A stretch of 64,000 nt of DNA from a virus, in the IMG/VR virus record IMGVR_UViG_3300035212_003113, positions 248,001-312,000 of that record; one strand, given 5' to 3'. The notes beneath the pieces were generated by a model, which saw only the letters and a list, made by a program, of their open reading frames with translations, made no database searches and had not been told where the DNA came from. This document shows positions 6,801-39,314 of the stretch, piece after piece. Both the position numbers and the translations under genes were made by a program. Position 1 is the first letter of the stretch, and the number at the start of each line of letters is the position of its first letter.

Positions 6801-8149
6801 GTGGTGAGGCGTACGATAGACCCGGCACATACGGAGATGCAAATCGAGTCCCGCGCATAACGGTAGATATAAATGGCAGAATCACAGGAATTACGCAAGG
6901 AGTGCTGGAGTTAGGTGGCGATCTAGATGGCATAAATCTTGTTTCACCAACACCGCTGTCGCCACCAACTCTTAATCATACAACCATTATTAAGATTCAA
7001 GGTCGTACCGTAAGTGTTCCAGGGATTCCGTCACTTGGGCCCGATCCTGTCTCTGCAGACAGCGTCTTTACATGGAATGGCAGTGCCTGGGTGGCCAGGC
7101 TGGTGGATACAATACAGGGGCGCTCTGTCTCTGCAGCTGCTCCTGCTCTAGGCGACGGTCTTATGTGGGACGGCACTCAATGGGCGCCATACCAGTTGGC
7201 TGGCGCCGGAGATGTGTCCGGCCCTGATGGTGCAACAAATAACAGGATTTCGCTTTTTGATGGAGCATCCGGCAAGCTAATTAAGCAGTCGCTCGTCGGC
7301 ATAGATAGCTCGGGCAATGTCACAGGCGTTCGCACCCTGGCGGCCAGTCTTGATATATCTACTTCTGCAGATATTCATGCAGGAGCAGGTCTTTACGGAG
7401 TAACGCTTAATGTGACAGGATTGTCAACGCTTGCTTCTGTGGGCGCCTCATCAGTAACCACTGCATCGCTGACAGTAAATACTAGCGCAAACATAACGAA
7501 TGCTACGATTACAGGGACTTTTACCGGCGGCGGCACTTTCTCTGGATCTATATCTAGCGCAACAATAGGCTCATCTACTGCTGCTTCTCATGGCTCACGA
7601 CATGCCCCTGGTGGCCTTGATGCACTGGCTACTGCAGCACCACTGCATGGAATTGGCGCAGGCAATACGGAAGGCACTGCCACAAGCTTTGCTCGCAGTG
7701 ATCACGACCATACAATTCGTTCTGGCCTGACTAATCTAACAATCGGTGATATCGGAGATGGCCAATTCCTTAAGCGAGTTGACACAGAAATTGTCGGTGC
7801 CGCATCAGGTGCAGTCAAGGTATTGACGGGTAATTTTGTAGGCGAGTTGACGTCGACGCTGGACGGCAGCTCTCGCTGGTATCCGCCGAGCTTTGTACGC
7901 ATTCTTCGCGTATGGGCTTCGCTAGGCGAGTCTGCCGCAGGAGTCACTGAGTTTGATGTATTGAAAGGCAGCACGGGCACGCCAATCACTATTCTTCCTG
8001 CTCACCTGCAGATCGTTGCTGGCGAGCACAGGTCTGCGGATCTGCTGCTGTCTACCCCTGTGGATTTGAATATTTCAGAGTACATAACGATCTCTCTTGT
8101 TGCCGCAAATGGCGGAAGCAACGCAGTTGTTTTCATAGAATACGAATAA
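3815..8149 (+). CDS. Giant modular tail fibre protein
   Basis: 1444 residues, six bases after the preceding stop, with a GAGG Shine-Dalgarno. It is a mosaic of repeated beta motifs. At least six or seven copies fit G-T/S-YG-x-(5)-(P/S)-x-I-(S/T)-V-x-x-x-G-x-(I/V)-(T/S)-x-(V/I), for example near residues 247, 368, 669 and 747. Three copies are of the LPVSKGGTGTDSL type (about 104, 162 and 290). Five or six are of the type QG-x-x-V-S-x-x-A-P-x-x-G-x-x-L-x-W-(D/N)-G-x-x-W-x-P. All are recurring building blocks of phage tail fibres. Residues about 1255-1300 (LHGIGAGNTEGTATSFARSD, then HDH) resemble a fibre collar or head element with possible metal-binding histidines. The last 120 residues form a beta-rich tip. 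Probably a long, thin, segmented fibre; receptor unknown. Confidence 0.85.
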   Translation: MLPIYTPLPEDGYCDTPYDGPDLIPGDGYVAAPAQASYVVLAPYPALPNERVLQAGDGVTIIDTGPDGTVTISAGPYVGDITASTPLAVTGTDTKNISLTGIVPVHHGGTGHFSYLVGDLLVADSTNSFQKLPAGDDGYVLIASGPESLPTWGKLDIGGYAEGILPVSKGGTGTDSLAASGILTVNSAGDTLVSVIGNTSGQHLVWTGSAWEPEAVVTGVSEVTAAAPITSSGGTSPEIGLQNSGAIAGSYGGAASIPVISVTAKGLVSSITEQEAEIDLTANVTGVLPVSSGGTNATALVPRGVLLSNLDGSAVVSVQGISEDDQLVWDGFEWKPRAFTGLLGITGIHPINVSDGYVAEVSLEDSGVEAGTYGGTASSAVISVDAKGIVTSVSNVPITASPGGVAGGSLTGLYPNPELRDGSVSEGKILDGAVTPQKLASTGVIAGTYGSTDPDFIFLNSFQVNTKGQLTSAEQAPLIADGLPIKGQVQGIIGATIAALAGDLAGDLRDSFVVGLAGQDLDQTLPGGEDWILAWETYDPAPEEPDAPPSADYDISVDVGRNMVFSTFGAALPSFSRIRFGLRPVEPLEPPSQLPSPVVGGVDYWTVAGSSSGNLVASSLQNAKDGHFITFASEGLNAYIEYYPRTERSPAMGRWTPKDIALKPLVPAPTGTYGSVGSIPVITVDDRGRTTSVSVTSDISASQLQGHAISSAAPTNGLALMWDGYTDQWTPSPVSPAPLSPNPEGTYGAGSSIPVITVNDRGQITAVAPTTVSGGDLDGSSGSVKVVGLQGNPVSSLSPGGGQVLLWDSTEWIPATVGSLTPFVPSPDGYYGSSTSVSQITVDEYGRISAVESVAIDISGMPVGGHASGTVGNISISVGGEVTGDVADIQIPVGGDVAGPISDATVSGIQGVGVSATAPTPGQVLYFNGSEWVPTSTTGGAPVDSQFIVVSADGILVNERVLSGGTNITITDNGAGASLELGLSELLTSTTEIPPGGEAYDRPGTYGDANRVPRITVDINGRITGITQGVLELGGDLDGINLVSPTPLSPPTLNHTTIIKIQGRTVSVPGIPSLGPDPVSADSVFTWNGSAWVARLVDTIQGRSVSAAAPALGDGLMWDGTQWAPYQLAGAGDVSGPDGATNNRISLFDGASGKLIKQSLVGIDSSGNVTGVRTLAASLDISTSADIHAGAGLYGVTLNVTGLSTLASVGASSVTTASLTVNTSANITNATITGTFTGGGTFSGSISSATIGSSTAASHGSRHAPGGLDALATAAPLHGIGAGNTEGTATSFARSDHDHTIRSGLTNLTIGDIGDGQFLKRVDTEIVGAASGAVKVLTGNFVGELTSTLDGSSRWYPPSFVRILRVWASLGESAAGVTEFDVLKGSTGTPITILPAHLQIVAGEHRSADLLLSTPVDLNISEYITISLVAANGGSNAVVFIEYE

Positions 8150-32753: not shown

Positions 32754-32812
32754 TTGCAATAAATAAAAATCTACTCGAGATAATCGGTGTACCGATCAAT
32801 TAATGTTTTTTT
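32754..32812 (+). promoter_or_regulatory. Candidate promoter region before the sheath gene
   Basis: The 100-base gap upstream of the sheath gene contains TTGCAA (32754-32759) and GATAAT (32779-32784) with a 19-base spacer, a weak sigma70-like pair. Within the spacer is AATAAATAAAAA, reminiscent of AT-rich phage late promoters. Next comes a small hairpin ATCGG-TGTA-CCGAT (32783-32796) and a T7 run (32806-32812), too far from the stem for a standard terminator. Sheath and tube are needed in high copy, so a separate promoter here is plausible. Confidence 0.4.
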
Positions 32813-32849
32813 AACAGGCTAGAGCTGAACCAGCACTTTGGGGTCTTTA

Positions 32850-35411
32850 ATGGCAAATATTCCAGGAATCAATACTCGCGTCCGCCCCGGCGTTTTCGTC
32901 AGACAGAGAGTTCGCACCAATACCGTCAGCATTGCTGGCGGTCTGCGCACTACCCTCATCATGGGCGAGGGCCGCGCAGAGGAGACTCTTGCGTTCCAGG
33001 CCCGCGGTGGCGGCCTCGACGGCGTAAATCCCGACTTCAGCGGCAATACAAATGCTCCGGATGGCCGTCACTTCCAGATCTCCCAGATTGATCTAGTTCC
33101 GAATCGTACCGATATTCGCAAGAATGGCGTTGCTCTGCGCGTACTGGAGCAATCAATCACTGCAGGCGCATTTGACTCGCGCTATGACGTTCGTGTTGAC
33201 CCGCTAACTGGCCGCGTTCAGCTCCAGGGCGCTAGCCTCCAGGACTTCGGAACAGAGAGCGGCCTACCAGTCTATTACAAGCGTTTTGCCTCGAACTCGG
33301 GTAACGGAACCCTTGATGTCTCGACTACCTCGCTTCTCAGCACGAATGCACAGCCAGAGACCTGGACCGTGCGCTGCACTGCTGTTTCAAAGGACGGCAC
33401 CGGCACGATAATCCCTGGTCGTGCTCTTTTCTCGGTAACCGGTTCGGTAACCGGCGCTGTTCGTGATACGGCTGGCGACCAGATTCGCTGGAAGTCAGAC
33501 GGCAATTCGTACAGCAACGGCGTTCTGCAGTTCTCGATCACCGAGGGCAGCCAGCCATTCAACGTTGGTGATAAGTTCGTCGTCACTGTTAATAGCGGCG
33601 TACTTGTAACCGGCGACAGCCTTGACGCTGTTTATATCGCAAATTCTTTTGTAAACGATCCTCAGGAATTCTTCTCTCCTACCGATCTGTACGCGAAGCA
33701 CGGCCAGCCCAGCGAAGACAACACTCTTGCTCTCGGCGCTGCCATGGCATTTGAGAACGGCGCAGCTTCTGTAGTTGCGCTACAGTGCAAGCCACCGGTT
33801 CCGCGTCAGACCTCAGAGCTGCTTATGGCAGCTGACAATCCCCTTAGCATAGAGGTCGAGGGCGCAACTGGTAACGAGGACATGGAGGATTGCATTTTCG
33901 CAATCAATGGCGGCGGCACCCCCGACACCGACTCCAAGATCAATGTTTTTGTAGTCAACCCGGACGGCAGCGAAGAGCAGATCCGTACGCTTGACAAGGC
34001 AGAGTTCTATGACCCAGCCAATGGCGACTCGATGCTCGCGGTCTACACGAACTTCTCCGCAGTAGCTACAAACTCCTACACGGCAGTCATGCTGCTTGAG
34101 ATGCTCCAGGAGGGCACCGACGGCTATGTCTATGACCTAGGCGGCGACACGTTCTTCCAGACAACCACGGGCGTATTCTCGGCCAGCGATGTTGGCAACT
34201 TCATCGATATCTTCGATGCTGGCGCAACCAACACCTTTGGTCGCTACGAGATCCTAGATGTTGGCGACGGCTACGGCGCGACCGGAATTGTCAAGGTGCT
34301 GCTGAATACGTCTGTTACCGGCTCAGTTGCCCAGAGTGGCAGCGATCTGCGCTGGTTCCTGCTCAACAGTGACACCGAGAGCAGCTCGGCATACTTCTGC
34401 CTGAGCGATGACATTGTTGACCTGCACCTCACGGCTGGCAAGGGCCTCCGCATTCAGTACGTAGACGTTGACGATGCAGATTATTTTGACACGAATTGGC
34501 TGCAGGGTTACCAGGCTGCCGAGCAGGTAGACGTACAGTTTGTTGTCCCTCTCCCCCGTCAGGCTATTAGCAATATCTTTGCCGCTGGCAAAGCACACGT
34601 TCTTTCTCAGAGCACGATTCTGAATGCTCAGGAGCGCATCCTGATCTGCGGTGCAATCAATGGTCTGGTACCAGAGAATCTGACTGGCGCCGAAGATGCA
34701 GCAGTTGAAAATATCGGCATCTTCGAGGGCATCCAGGGCGATGATCCGCAGGAAGTGCTAGACGGCGACATCGAAGATCTTGCCAACTACTCGGTACTTG
34801 ATGCATTCGGCGACACGCAGCGCGTCATCTATGTCGGCCCCGACCAGATTGTTCGTAATCTCGGTGCCGCAGGCAATACCGTTCTCTCGGGCTACTTCAT
34901 GGCTCCGGCTCTTTCCGGCTACCTGAGCGCCAAGTCGTTTGTTGCAGAGCCTGCCACAAATAAGACTCTTGCTGGCTTCTCTATCCCGCGTTCACGTTCG
35001 TATCGCCCAAGCGTCGTAAACAGCCTTATTGCTGCAGGCGTATGCTTGCTAGAGCCGGTTGCTGGTGGTGGCCGCATTGTTCATGGTATTACGACTGCTT
35101 CCTCGGGCGCAGCTGAAGACGAAGAAATCTCGATTGTAGAAGTTCGCGACTACGTCGTACGCGTTCTGCGAAATGGCCTGCGCAGCTTTGTCGGCCGTAT
35201 CAATTCACCAACAATTCTACAGGAGCTTTCTGCTGCTGTTGACAAGATCATGCGCGCAATGGAGACACAGGGACTTATAACGGGCTATGCCGACATTGTC
35301 GTCTCAATTAATCCCACAGATGCGCGTCAGGTAGATATCGGCGTTCGCGCATTCCCAGCGGGTCCGCTAAACTACGTGTTTGCCGATATAGAATTCACGC
35401 TAGGCGGCTGA
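32850..35411 (+). CDS. Contractile tail sheath protein
   Basis: 853 residues from ATG 32850 (MANIPGINTRVRPGVF); the in-frame TTG at 32838 is less likely. The N-terminus (PGVFVRQRVRTNTVSIAGG) and C-terminal domain (NKTLAGFSIPRSRSYRPSVV, then EVRDYVVRVLRNGLRSFVGR and a final VFADIEFTLGG strand) match the tail-sheath family, whose subunits wrap the tube and contract on infection. It is longer than T4 gp18 (659 residues). The extra length lies in the middle (about residues 120-560), where surface insertion domains are usual. It is followed by the tube gene, the canonical order. Confidence 0.93.
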   Translation: MANIPGINTRVRPGVFVRQRVRTNTVSIAGGLRTTLIMGEGRAEETLAFQARGGGLDGVNPDFSGNTNAPDGRHFQISQIDLVPNRTDIRKNGVALRVLEQSITAGAFDSRYDVRVDPLTGRVQLQGASLQDFGTESGLPVYYKRFASNSGNGTLDVSTTSLLSTNAQPETWTVRCTAVSKDGTGTIIPGRALFSVTGSVTGAVRDTAGDQIRWKSDGNSYSNGVLQFSITEGSQPFNVGDKFVVTVNSGVLVTGDSLDAVYIANSFVNDPQEFFSPTDLYAKHGQPSEDNTLALGAAMAFENGAASVVALQCKPPVPRQTSELLMAADNPLSIEVEGATGNEDMEDCIFAINGGGTPDTDSKINVFVVNPDGSEEQIRTLDKAEFYDPANGDSMLAVYTNFSAVATNSYTAVMLLEMLQEGTDGYVYDLGGDTFFQTTTGVFSASDVGNFIDIFDAGATNTFGRYEILDVGDGYGATGIVKVLLNTSVTGSVAQSGSDLRWFLLNSDTESSSAYFCLSDDIVDLHLTAGKGLRIQYVDVDDADYFDTNWLQGYQAAEQVDVQFVVPLPRQAISNIFAAGKAHVLSQSTILNAQERILICGAINGLVPENLTGAEDAAVENIGIFEGIQGDDPQEVLDGDIEDLANYSVLDAFGDTQRVIYVGPDQIVRNLGAAGNTVLSGYFMAPALSGYLSAKSFVAEPATNKTLAGFSIPRSRSYRPSVVNSLIAAGVCLLEPVAGGGRIVHGITTASSGAAEDEEISIVEVRDYVVRVLRNGLRSFVGRINSPTILQELSAAVDKIMRAMETQGLITGYADIVVSINPTDARQVDIGVRAFPAGPLNYVFADIEFTLGG

Positions 35412-35432: not shown

Positions 35433-36107
35433 ATGGGCTACCCCTATACTGGATCATCTACAACATCGGCTACCAGCACCGGCCTATCTACACAGATAAT
35501 TGTGAAGGTAGACGGCGTCGCTGTCGGCGGTATTCAGACAATGAATATCGACCAACGCCGTGACGTACAGAGAATAACGGAAGTTGGCACAGACGGCACA
35601 ATCGAGCTTGTTCCGCGCAGCGCGACGACCTTTGAGCTAACGATTGATCGCATTTACTTTGATCGCAAGACGATCACAGAGGCTCTAAACCGCCAGTTTA
35701 TCAACATTCAGTCACAGCGTTACCCGTTCGATATCTACGTCTACGACATGCATAATGTGACCGCTGCGAGCGTATCGTCAGCTGCCGGTGGCGAAGCAGA
35801 TACCGGTGCATTTGACGTGGCTCCTAATGCAACCGCAGGTATCATGGTAACTGTGTACGAGAATTGCTGGATTACGAGCAAGCGTGAGTCGTACACGACC
35901 AGCGACTACGTTATTACCCAGAACGTAGCTGTTGCTGCCGAGTTCTGTCACACGTTCATGGACAACGCTAATACAAGCGTTGCAGACGCCCGCGGTCCAG
36001 CTCTTGATGATAGCGAAGAGGGCAAGCTGCGCAAGCTCGAGCGCCTCGTTGACCGCGCTCGTCCGGGCAGCCTTGACGCCCGTGGCGTTGGCGGCGTAGT
36101 ATTCTGA
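35433..36107 (+). CDS. Tail tube protein
   Basis: 224 residues with an AGGAGTTAATA ribosome binding site. The tube-family layout is visible: an N-terminal strand set (IIVKVDGVAVGGIQTMNIDQ), R-D-V-Q-R-I-T-E-V-G-T-D-G-T-I, a central strand-helix (TTFELTIDRIYFDRKTITEA), and a VYENCWITSKRESYTTSDYV strand with INQNVAVAAE-like closure. These are hallmarks of gp19/Hcp-like tubes. A charged C-terminal extension of about 40 residues (SEEGKLRKLERLVDRARPGS) is unusual and may line the lumen or bind the sheath. It lies between sheath and chaperone genes and is followed by a strong terminator. Confidence 0.9.
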   Translation: MGYPYTGSSTTSATSTGLSTQIIVKVDGVAVGGIQTMNIDQRRDVQRITEVGTDGTIELVPRSATTFELTIDRIYFDRKTITEALNRQFINIQSQRYPFDIYVYDMHNVTAASVSSAAGGEADTGAFDVAPNATAGIMVTVYENCWITSKRESYTTSDYVITQNVAVAAEFCHTFMDNANTSVADARGPALDDSEEGKLRKLERLVDRARPGSLDARGVGGVVF

Positions 36108-36200: not shown

Positions 36201-36857
36201 GTGGAAAAGAATAAACCAGGCAAAACGCCATTCATTCATCCGAGCTTAGCGTCGGCAAATACCCCAAATCCAACACCGGCTCAGCGCGGCAAGTCGCGCA
36301 TCGCCCCAGGTGCAGCGCGCGGCGTAGTCATCGAGCACGAGGCTCCACCAGAAACCGCTTCTTCGCGTTCGTCTATTCCGCCAGAGCTACTAGTGTCTCC
36401 GCCACAGCAGGAACCAGATGCTCCTACGGGGGAAGCTGCAAAGATTGAGCAGCGCAAGCATGATGTGATCAACAGGCTATTGCTATTTACCCAACCTATG
36501 TACAAGACCGTGGAGCTAGGCGGCATGCAGTTCCGTTTCAAGGTTATGACTCCTTCGGACACAGCACACGTCATCAAGATCTTTAATGCCATGCCAGAGG
36601 ACGAGCAGACGCTTATGCGCAACCGCATCCTGAATCTGGCTGCCGCTCTCATCGATGTAGACGGCGTATCACTTGAGTCGATTTACAAGGGCACGCTTTC
36701 ACGAGACGTTGTACTGATGCGCTACTCAGAGCTGATGAAGTGGAGTAATCCTGTGCTTAACGGCGTGCTCGCTGCGCATGATAAGCTGCTAGAGGATATG
36801 AAGCAGGAGTATCTGCCGGATTTTCTCAAGCAGCCGAAAAAGGAGAGCACCGGCTGA
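36201..36857 (+). CDS. Tail assembly chaperone (upstream frame)
   Basis: 218 residues with a GTG start behind GAGGAGTAAA. The first 80 residues are Pro/Ser-rich and disordered. Residues 85-218 form a helical domain (FRFKVMTPSDTAHVIKIFNA, then RNRILNLAAALIDVDGVSLE) like tail assembly chaperones that hold the tape measure. The gene lies between tube and tape measure, the standard place for a chaperone pair. The next gene lies in the -1 frame, and that frame is open across the end of this one. A -1 frameshift at the A5 run (36837-36841) would fuse the two, as in lambda G/GT. Confidence 0.75.
   Translation: MEKNKPGKTPFIHPSLASANTPNPTPAQRGKSRIAPGAARGVVIEHEAPPETASSRSSIPPELLVSPPQQEPDAPTGEAAKIEQRKHDVINRLLLFTQPMYKTVELGGMQFRFKVMTPSDTAHVIKIFNAMPEDEQTLMRNRILNLAAALIDVDGVSLESIYKGTLSRDVVLMRYSELMKWSNPVLNGVLAAHDKLLEDMKQEYLPDFLKQPKKESTG
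36785..36857 (+). promoter_or_regulatory. Candidate -1 programmed frameshift window
   Basis: The zero frame reads CAG CCG AAA AAG GAG and stops at TGA 36855-36857. The -1 frame is open from 36785 (after TAA at 36782-36784) through the whole downstream gene. The slippage site is probably G-AAA-AAG (36836-36842), 12 bases before the stop. It is not a perfect X-XXY-YYZ heptamer, because the P-site shift leaves a first-position mismatch, so efficiency may be modest. Confidence 0.6.
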
Positions 36858-36865
36858 TTTGGCAG

Positions 36866-37162
36866 ATGAGTAAAGCTCTCCACAAGCACCCATGGGAGTT
36901 GGGGATTGAAACAATGTCCCCGCTCCTTCTTGCTTGGTACAGGTCCAATATAGACAGAGATGCCAAAGAACAGGCAGATGATTATATAGCAATAGCGGAG
37001 TATTTAGCTAGCTTCTCGAACCCAAAGGCCGTAGAGCAGGTACAAAGCGCTCGTCGGCGCCCCAAAGAAGAAACAAGCGAAGGTATGCTGCGGACTCTGC
37101 GTGCAATCTCCGGCAAGCATCTGACCGACGAGCAAATCAAAAAGAACATTACTCAGAAGTAG
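36866..37162 (+). CDS. Tail assembly chaperone, downstream (-1 frame) part
   Basis: 98 residues if started at ATG 36866, but no good Shine-Dalgarno precedes that ATG (CTGATTTGGCAG), and the frame is open 81 bases upstream, across the end of the previous gene. It is therefore likely made mostly or only as the C-terminal part of a frameshift fusion. The helical sequence (KHPWELGIETMSPLLLAWYR) and the ending after a charged linker fit the T-part of G/GT chaperones, which contacts the tube. It is followed closely by the tape-measure gene. Confidence 0.7.
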   Translation: MSKALHKHPWELGIETMSPLLLAWYRSNIDRDAKEQADDYIAIAEYLASFSNPKAVEQVQSARRRPKEETSEGMLRTLRAISGKHLTDEQIKKNITQK

Positions 37163-37169
37163 GCGATAA

Positions 37170-39314
37170 GTGGACGACATTAGCCTTGAAAATATTCAAA
37201 AGCTGCTTTCTCAGTCTGGTAATTCCGATACCAAGGTTGACGATGGCACTTTGAACAAGCTAAAAGATTGGGCCAACAAGGCGTCTAAGCTACTAACGGG
37301 CATGGGCTTTGATTCGTCAGAGATGAAGAATAAGATTACGGATGCCCTTGTCTCAGCGGGCAAAAAAGGCATCAGCGGCATCAATGAGCTTCTGAAGAGT
37401 ACGATTGGTCAGGGCTTTACCGTAGACACTGTTTATAATATGCTCGGCCTTGATACTTTCAAGGCTGATGCAGAAAATACTCTTGGTGCCTTAAAGGGCG
37501 TGCTACAGGATACTGGTATAATTCCAATAGAACTTTCACTTGACTCTGCCGAGGTTCAAGTAGAAAAACTGAAGGAAATGATAGGGAAAGGCGGTCTCAG
37601 CAAGCTGGCCATATCTTTTGGCGCAACCAAGCTCGCTGACCAGTTGCGCACGGTAAGGACACAATACACCGAGCCACTAACCAAGGATCTGGATGATTTA
37701 AGAATTACAGCAGGCGCTATTTTTGCAGTGAGGTCAAATCCATTCGGGGCGATTCGTGAAGATGTGACCGCGAGCACAGAATCTCTTAAGGTTTTTCAGC
37801 AAAAGTTTGCCAGAGAGGCCATTGCCTTGCAGTTCAGTCTAGGTATCGATGCTACTGACGCCAAGCGAGAGCTGCAGAGTGTCTACGCTGGGCTTGATGA
37901 TTCTCTTAGGCAGTTGTCTGGATTCTCTATAAAGAGTGGTGATCAAAACATTGAGGGTGCTGAGGCGGTAGTTGTCGCTGCGAAGGCAATTGGAGTCGAG
38001 GTACAAGAAATCACAGGCGATATAAATGAGATGACTTCTCGCTTTGGGCTTTCTGGAGAGCAGGCCGCCGAGAGAATAATGACTATAGGTAAGGCATCTG
38101 CCGCCTCTGGTCTTAGCATGAGGGCCTTCAAAGATCTTGTTATGGACAGCGCCGGTCAGTTTGGCAGCTTTGGAGATGCCACAGAGGAGTCTGCCGCACT
38201 GCTTGAGCGCTTTACAAAGAACGCCAGCCGTGAGCGCATGAAGGCCGTAACTGATGCATTCAAGGGCGTTGCTAGCGGAATAGCAGGTATGACGGATGAG
38301 ATGAAAGCATTCGTCTCTATGGGTACCGAACTTTCTGGTGGCGGCGGTGCAATTGAGTCCATAGTGCGCTTAGAAGAGGCCATGCAGTCTGGTGACAAAG
38401 ATGCTCTTCAGGGCATTTTTGATGAGACGATGGCCAGGATCGAGGAGCTCACGGGCTCGCCGCTCATGACCATGCAGGAGGCCGTTTCGTCCGGCCAAGA
38501 AAGTACATTTTATCAGCAGGCTGCTCTTGCAAAGCAATTCGGCTTCGCAGGAAACCGGGCGCAAGCGAGCGACGTATTCTCTGCATACCGAACAGGCACA
38601 GTTGACATAGGTGATATCAAAGACCGCCAGATGCCAGCTGATCTTGGTACGCAGGCTAGAGAGAAGATGGCCGGTCAGATGGGTGCCGGCGAGATGGCTG
38701 AGAACTTGCTGCGCGGAGTAGCTGCTCAGCAAAAATTCAATGCTCTCTGGGCAGATACGACAACCTCTTTCATGGCCCAGACACAGGATCTTGGTAAAAA
38801 GTTAGTGGACATAACTGGTCAATTTACTAAAGCTGAGGACATAATCTCTGCATACGTTAGTGATCCTAAGTTAAAGCAGGCTGCGGCTGGCAAAGATGTA
38901 CCCAAGGGCACTACTCGAGAGACTGCAGCCTCTGCCATGGAGGCTCAGGGGACGGCAGGGGTAGGTAGGACTGGAACGATGACAGAGGCGCAGGCCTATG
39001 CAGGTGTCGTAATAGATGCTTCGCGTTTTGAGGCCGGGCTCGTGGCAGGCATTACTCCTGCTGTCAGCGCATCTATAGCTGCTGCAACCGCTGCTATTAC
39101 AGAAACAGTGATAAAGAACGCCTCAAATGCTGCTGCGGGCGGGGCTGCAGGTGTCATCCCCGCTGCTGCCGTAGTTGGTGCTAATCAGCCACCCGTCAAT
39201 ATCCAGGTAGAGGTAACCGTCAAAGGAAGCGATCTAAAAGACATGATCGAAGTCAAGGCTAAGCCAATCGCTGCCCAAGCGGCGCGCTGGTCTGCCGGCA
39301 TGCCCAATCCGTAA
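37170..39314 (+). CDS. Tail tape measure protein
   Basis: 714 residues, GTG start seven bases after the preceding stop. Long helical sequence with Ala/Lys/Glu periodicity (residues 60-620), a central segment rich in Gly/Ala (SGEQAAERIMTIGKASAASG, ERMKAVTDAFKGVASGIAGM) and a hydrophobic Ala-rich stretch near residues 615-665 (AGITPAVSASIAAATAAITE, NAAAGGAAGVIPAAAVVG) resembling the membrane-active part of tape measures. Location after the chaperone pair and before hub genes is canonical. At about 1.5 angstrom per residue it predicts a tube near 105 nm. It is modest in size for a jumbo phage. Confidence 0.82.
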   Translation: MDDISLENIQKLLSQSGNSDTKVDDGTLNKLKDWANKASKLLTGMGFDSSEMKNKITDALVSAGKKGISGINELLKSTIGQGFTVDTVYNMLGLDTFKADAENTLGALKGVLQDTGIIPIELSLDSAEVQVEKLKEMIGKGGLSKLAISFGATKLADQLRTVRTQYTEPLTKDLDDLRITAGAIFAVRSNPFGAIREDVTASTESLKVFQQKFAREAIALQFSLGIDATDAKRELQSVYAGLDDSLRQLSGFSIKSGDQNIEGAEAVVVAAKAIGVEVQEITGDINEMTSRFGLSGEQAAERIMTIGKASAASGLSMRAFKDLVMDSAGQFGSFGDATEESAALLERFTKNASRERMKAVTDAFKGVASGIAGMTDEMKAFVSMGTELSGGGGAIESIVRLEEAMQSGDKDALQGIFDETMARIEELTGSPLMTMQEAVSSGQESTFYQQAALAKQFGFAGNRAQASDVFSAYRTGTVDIGDIKDRQMPADLGTQAREKMAGQMGAGEMAENLLRGVAAQQKFNALWADTTTSFMAQTQDLGKKLVDITGQFTKAEDIISAYVSDPKLKQAAAGKDVPKGTTRETAASAMEAQGTAGVGRTGTMTEAQAYAGVVIDASRFEAGLVAGITPAVSASIAAATAAITETVIKNASNAAAGGAAGVIPAAAVVGANQPPVNIQVEVTVKGSDLKDMIEVKAKPIAAQAARWSAGMPNP

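Follow-up and report, generated by a model that had tools for sequence, protein, structure and literature searches.

A probable tail assembly chaperone frameshift with a divergent candidate slip site in a giant-phage lineage

Tail chaperone frameshifting in described phages

The slip site of phage lambda is G GGA AAG, unlike the one discussed here. A -1 frameshift of the gpG/gpGT type occurs in many tailed phages, as Xu et al. (cited in PMC5009743) reportedly described in 2004. An excerpt of PMC5009743 states that lambda G binds the tape measure and T the tube, that the G/GT ratio is ~30:1, and that some tailed-phage shifts apparently work without stimulators. Excerpts of the PRFect paper (PMC10885494) report that XXXYYY is absent from most annotated shift overlaps and propose other motifs, including one named 'five', and excerpts on GeneTack (PMC3711429) list G_AAA_AAA and A_AAA_AAG among A-rich consensus heptamers and give 6-7% for two phage chaperone genes. 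The sole named relative carrying the gene pair studied here is Bacillus phage G (NC_023719), whose gp181 and joined gp182 are both annotated as tail assembly chaperone.

The gene pair and its family

The window, i.e. the whole stretch of 64,000 nucleotides that was analysed, covers positions 248001-312000 of the 371,675-bp record of a giant phage. In it, two overlapping genes lie between a tail tube-like gene and a gene at the tape-measure position (Table 1). The first-pass annotation had placed the pair between tube and tape measure; the tube-like gene upstream stands by its match to phrog_985, whereas the tape-measure label is given by position only. The downstream frame had been described as -1 and open through the end of the upstream gene, and it is indeed open over all of 36785-37162; a T-like domain would be read from ~36842 once the frame had shifted. 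The zero frame ends in CAG CCG AAA AAG GAG AGC ACC GGC TGA. Before ATG 36866, the -1 frame contains no ATG, GTG or TTG, and its sole near-start is CTG 36854.

Table 1. Features at and around the junction (positions in the window)
Feature	Position	Strand	Basis or remark
Tail sheath gene	32838..35411	+	phrog_23, E 2.8e-5; Bacillus phage G sheath, E 1e-12
Tail tube-like gene	35433..36107	+	phrog_985, E 6e-6
Zero-frame gene, 218 aa, G-like tail assembly chaperone part	GTG 36201..TGA 36855-36857	+	ORF; chaperone match via relatives
-1 open frame, T-like domain	36785..37162	+	Stop just before 36785; homologues in 19 other distinct junctions
58-nt block identical in window and L003	36813..36870	+	Pairwise alignment
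Alternative weak slip heptamer T TTT CTC	36821..36827	+	T TTT TTA at the same place in L011/L030/L033
Best candidate slip heptamer G AAA AAG, non-canonical	36836..36842	+	Re-pairing score
AAGGAG, Shine-Dalgarno-like (rival reading)	36840..36845	+	Ends 8 bases 5' of CTG 36854
7-bp stem, 5' arm GGAGAGC	36842..36848	+	Abuts slip site, covers GGAG
-1 codons H-R-L-I-W; R and W invariant in family	36848..36862	+	T-domain alignments
CTG overlapping TGA stop (rival start)	36854..36856	+	Sequence
ATG, independent start per ORF calling	36866..36868	+	ORF list
7-bp stem, 3' arm GCTCTCC	36875..36881	+	Fold
714-aa gene at tape-measure position	37170..39314	+	Position only; no family match below E 0.04

Relatives came from scans of viral contigs, with tube and T-domain sequences as queries. 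We tabulated 23 junctions including that of the window, and removal of the duplicates L026, L032 and L034 left 20 distinct ones (the window and 19 others). Several entries were the same contig (L007, L009 and L027 are L003, L028 is L011, and L004 is the window itself); L001, L010 (63% identical to the window in the tube gene), L013, L021 and L031, which end before the junction, were left out, as was L035, which has a deletion across it. A further candidate, L002, was rejected as a short match of 42 residues inside an unrelated ORF. Phage-collection searches with the G, T and tube proteins of the window gave no match, one scan of genome contigs gave no relative, and no such gene pair appears in the annotation of the stretch of Tunturiibacter phage Tunturi_5 that was examined. 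As for L035, the contig nearly matches L034 but lacks a net ~116 nt around 7331-7441; the slip region is gone and the G and T parts are joined in one frame, through either an assembly error or a real deletion.

The surroundings of the pair vary among relatives. L008 has an extra 318-aa ORF between the sheath and tube genes (894-1850), by eye possibly a homing endonuclease, and L008, L013, L017, L020 and L022 carry a tandem pair of tube-like genes 5' of the chaperone, against a single one in the window. The proteins at the tape-measure position of the window (37170-39314) and of L003 (5386-7602) are just 51% identical, with neighbours at 81-92%. PHROG and Pfam matches of the sheath protein are weak, and a phage-collection search with it retrieved phage G, among others, at low identity. 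The longest identical run between the window and L003 within aligned pieces (93 nt, window 32807-32899) covers the first codons of the sheath gene and the gap ahead of it, and is possibly a leader or promoter; for the sheath gene, ATG 32850 may be a likelier start than the listed TTG 32838.

Each of the 20 distinct junctions has its T-like domain in frame -1 with respect to the G-like gene, and the outcome proposed beforehand as speaking against a frameshift, a -1 frame that is closed in relatives past the slip, was seen in none of the 23. Sequence homology to annotated chaperones comes through relatives only. The window's own proteins gave no chaperone match against PHROGs and Pfam, which counts against the frameshift reading; of the 17 G-like proteins in the alignment, three are matched by phrog_2792 and two by phrog_2992 (both families named tail assembly chaperone, E up to 0.01), and the T domain of L020 matches gp182 of Bacillus phage G at E 5e-5. 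Foldseek searches of the G and T models against the PDB returned no similar solved structure and nothing below E 1, an uninformative outcome (mean pLDDT of the G-part model: 72.6).

Conservation also runs across the junction. An R-x-x-W motif directly follows the shift in 20/20 distinct junctions, and neither of its fixed residues (R4 and W7) varies in the two T-domain alignments (17 rows each), with L030 and L033 having them as well; the H before the R is kept in 18/20. In the window, R (36851-36853) and W (36860-36862) are both 5' of ATG 36866, and H and R (36848-36853) precede CTG 36854, so that a start at either codon would leave conserved residues untranslated. In the T-domain model from AlphaFold2 (mean pLDDT 78.9), residues 2-13 form the first helix, and since Met9 corresponds to ATG 36866, a start there would cut the predicted helix. 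Independent translation from ATG 36866 into a 98-aa protein, the start listed by ORF calling, is for these reasons highly improbable: most of the first helix and the family-invariant R and W would be lost, the codon has no ribosome site upstream, and relatives have no common start here. Indeed, no start codon is common to the 19 other distinct junctions, and ahead of the conserved R the -1 frame lacks ATG, GTG, TTG and CTG in 16/18 relatives outside the lineage of the window and L003, the exceptions being L017 (ATG) and L024 (TTG).

The layout of a chaperone frameshift, which the first-pass annotation had proposed, is supported by the -1 T domain in all relatives, the PHROG chaperone matches, the homology with phage G and the conserved residues 5' of ATG 36866. 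We conclude that the locus very probably encodes a tail assembly chaperone of the lambda G/GT type whose longer form arises by -1 frameshifting. It also shows that ORF calling by simple means splits the probable fusion in these genomes.

Candidate slip sites and downstream stems

Canonical heptamers lie at or adjoining the stop in all 18 relatives outside the lineage of the window and L003: A AAA AAA in eight, A AAA AAC in seven, and T TTT TTA and/or T TTA AAR in three (L011, L030 and L033). Neither the window nor L003, its close relative, has one. The best candidate in the window is G AAA AAG, rightly called non-canonical from the start, and its departure from the X XXY YYZ form counts against the frameshift reading. 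Its A5 occupies 36837-36841 and the heptamer ends 12 bases 5' of the zero-frame stop, as had been noted. Re-pairing with GAA at the P-site involves a first-position G.U, and the heptamer has the joint top simple re-pairing score in the overlap, or the sole top score if AAG-to-AAA counts as a pair; one lysine tRNA decodes AAA and AAG alike. In-frame dicodons of AAA followed by AAA, AAG or AAC number 22 in 19,079 codons (28 listed ORFs), so chance would put about 0.03 into the 24-codon overlap. As an argument against chance this rarity is suggestive only, and the strong support for a frameshift comes from the relatives. Literature searches for the exact heptamer (GAAAAAG or G AAA AAG) together with frameshift gave no match. 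G AAA AAG is likely the actual slip site.

At this site, we infer a ratio and an efficiency such that most ribosomes would terminate at TGA 36857, giving the 218-aa G-like protein, and a minority would slip back one base with two lysine tRNAs on AAA AAG (36837-36842). The slipped tRNAs would re-pair with GAA AAA and the -1 frame would be read on to 37162, yielding a 320-residue G-T fusion (...DFLKQPKK, followed after the shift by GEHRLIWQMSKALHK...). If lambda is a guide, the G part may bind the tape measure and the T part may recruit the tube protein. An A homopolymer at the junction would also suit slippage of RNA polymerase instead of the ribosome; A5 is, however, shorter than known transcript-slippage runs, and A6C is found in 7/18 relatives, which leaves polymerase slippage with hardly any credence.

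Conservation between the window and L003 bears on where a ribosomal shift would take place. The 58-nt identical block at the junction is the second-longest identical run within the aligned pieces of L003, and in a permutation keeping codon-phase rates, over 685 aligned bases at 80% identity, runs of such length occurred in 2/20,000. Zero-frame third positions differ at 0/15 sites in 36813-36857 vs 51/112 in 36477-36812. Dual coding after G AAA AAG covers 36842-36857 only, so it does not explain why 0/9 third positions differ in 36813-36841 (probability ~0.004 at the upstream rate), and this counts against a shift at that heptamer. The identity 5' of G AAA AAG suggests an RNA element or a slip farther upstream, on the limited evidence of two genomes. 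As an example of the latter, the frameshift could be real and occur at T TTT CTC (36821-36827) instead of the A5. This heptamer is positionally homologous to the DFL codons of the close relatives L011, L030 and L033 (T TTT TTA), its P-site re-pairing is perfect, and a slip there would make 36828-36857 dual-coding and account for more of the 58-nt identity; yet A-site re-pairing from CTC to TCT is poor and A5 is better by simple pairing. We consider this variant of the frameshift reading unlikely, and retain G AAA AAG as the preferred site.

The relatives have a candidate stimulator that the window lacks. Among 16 of them (the count excludes the window, L003, L030 and L033), a 6-bp stem with an 8-nt loop located 7 nt 3' of the heptamer pairs in 86/96 cells; with one arm slid by 1-3 nt, only 24-50 of 96 cells pair. 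The stem overlies codons of a conserved peptide (often E-P-W-H-R-L-R), so that constraints on peptide and RNA are confounded, but several of its pairs vary on both sides, e.g. G-C to T-A, and such changes in the sequences favour a constraint on the RNA. Single folds of relatives are mostly 1-2 standard deviations below shuffles, with exceptions that include L012, L015 and L016 (short folds). The +7 stem is absent in the window and L003, and folding of the window from 5 nt past the heptamer shows no advantage over shuffles (z +0.6 over 30 nt, +1.5 over 60 nt). The lack of a stimulatory hairpin ~5-9 nt downstream in the window counts against the frameshift reading. Another hairpin, CAGCCG/CGGCTG (36831-36836/36851-36856), was set aside because its 5' arm lies ahead of or on the heptamer, where a ribosome would melt it. 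The window and L003 can form a GGAGAGC/GCTCTCC stem instead, which is not significant (13/200 shuffles fold equally well).

This last stem is part of a different proposal, in which termination-reinitiation replaces the shift: translation would be coupled, with a restart at CTG 36854 via AAGGAG 36840-36845, otherwise hidden by the stem, and T would be a separate protein. The downstream gene had been said to have no good ribosome site, which holds for ATG 36866 but not for CTG 36854, given the AAGGAG 8 bases ahead of it. A missing ribosome site is in any case a weak point when taken alone, since several other tightly packed genes here also have no clear one. The spacing of AAGGAG and CTG, the overlap of CTG with the stop, the stem covering GGAG, and the absence from the window of the relatives' canonical slip site and +7 hairpin all speak for reinitiation. 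Against it, CTG starts are rare, and the -1 codons for H and R lie 5' of CTG and would stay untranslated, despite their conservation across the distinct junctions. We regard reinitiation in place of a shift, including the unmasking of AAGGAG, as improbable, and frameshifting remains the preferred reading.

If so, the site itself may have changed in this lineage. Comparison of L011 with the window suggests, from few sequences, that the old site has disappeared together with its stop, the zero frame now being a few codons longer. A fuller history, which we put forward tentatively as slightly less likely than not, is that the lineage lost a canonical ancestral site (T TTT TTA, or A AAA AAA/C by the stop, with the +7 hairpin), that the stop shifted downstream, and that G AAA AAG took the place of the lost site, the 58 nt having stayed unchanged; with the hidden AAGGAG and the CTG, T might then be both a fusion and a reinitiation product.

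Comparison with known systems

Frameshifting of tail chaperones has long been known, and the system as such is therefore no novelty; what is unusual in this lineage is confined to the divergent site and its surroundings. The family offers a natural series within giant phages, with 18 canonical junctions and one lineage in which site, stop and hairpin have changed and the product has apparently been kept. This series makes testable how one programmed slip site can give way to another, and whether shifting at G AAA AAG is efficient enough without a usual stimulator.

Among collections of slip sites, the non-canonical backward motifs of PRFect resemble the case of the window, although its training set consists of SEA-PHAGES genomes and G AAA AAG is not among the motifs named in the excerpts of that paper (PMC10885494). 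Likewise, the GeneTack heptamers, as listed in excerpts of PMC3711429, are A-rich like the site of the window but do not include G AAA AAG. With lambda gpG/gpGT, the window shares the layout, the direction of the shift and the presumed roles of the two parts. In phage G, the gp181/gp182 pair follows sheath and virion structural genes and precedes an annotated tape measure, a position like that of the pair in the window, the shift is to the -1 frame, and the T domain is homologous to that of the family, with an R-I-R-W motif. It differs from the window in having a canonical A AAA AAC directly before TAG, and in sequence, at ~19-20% identity.
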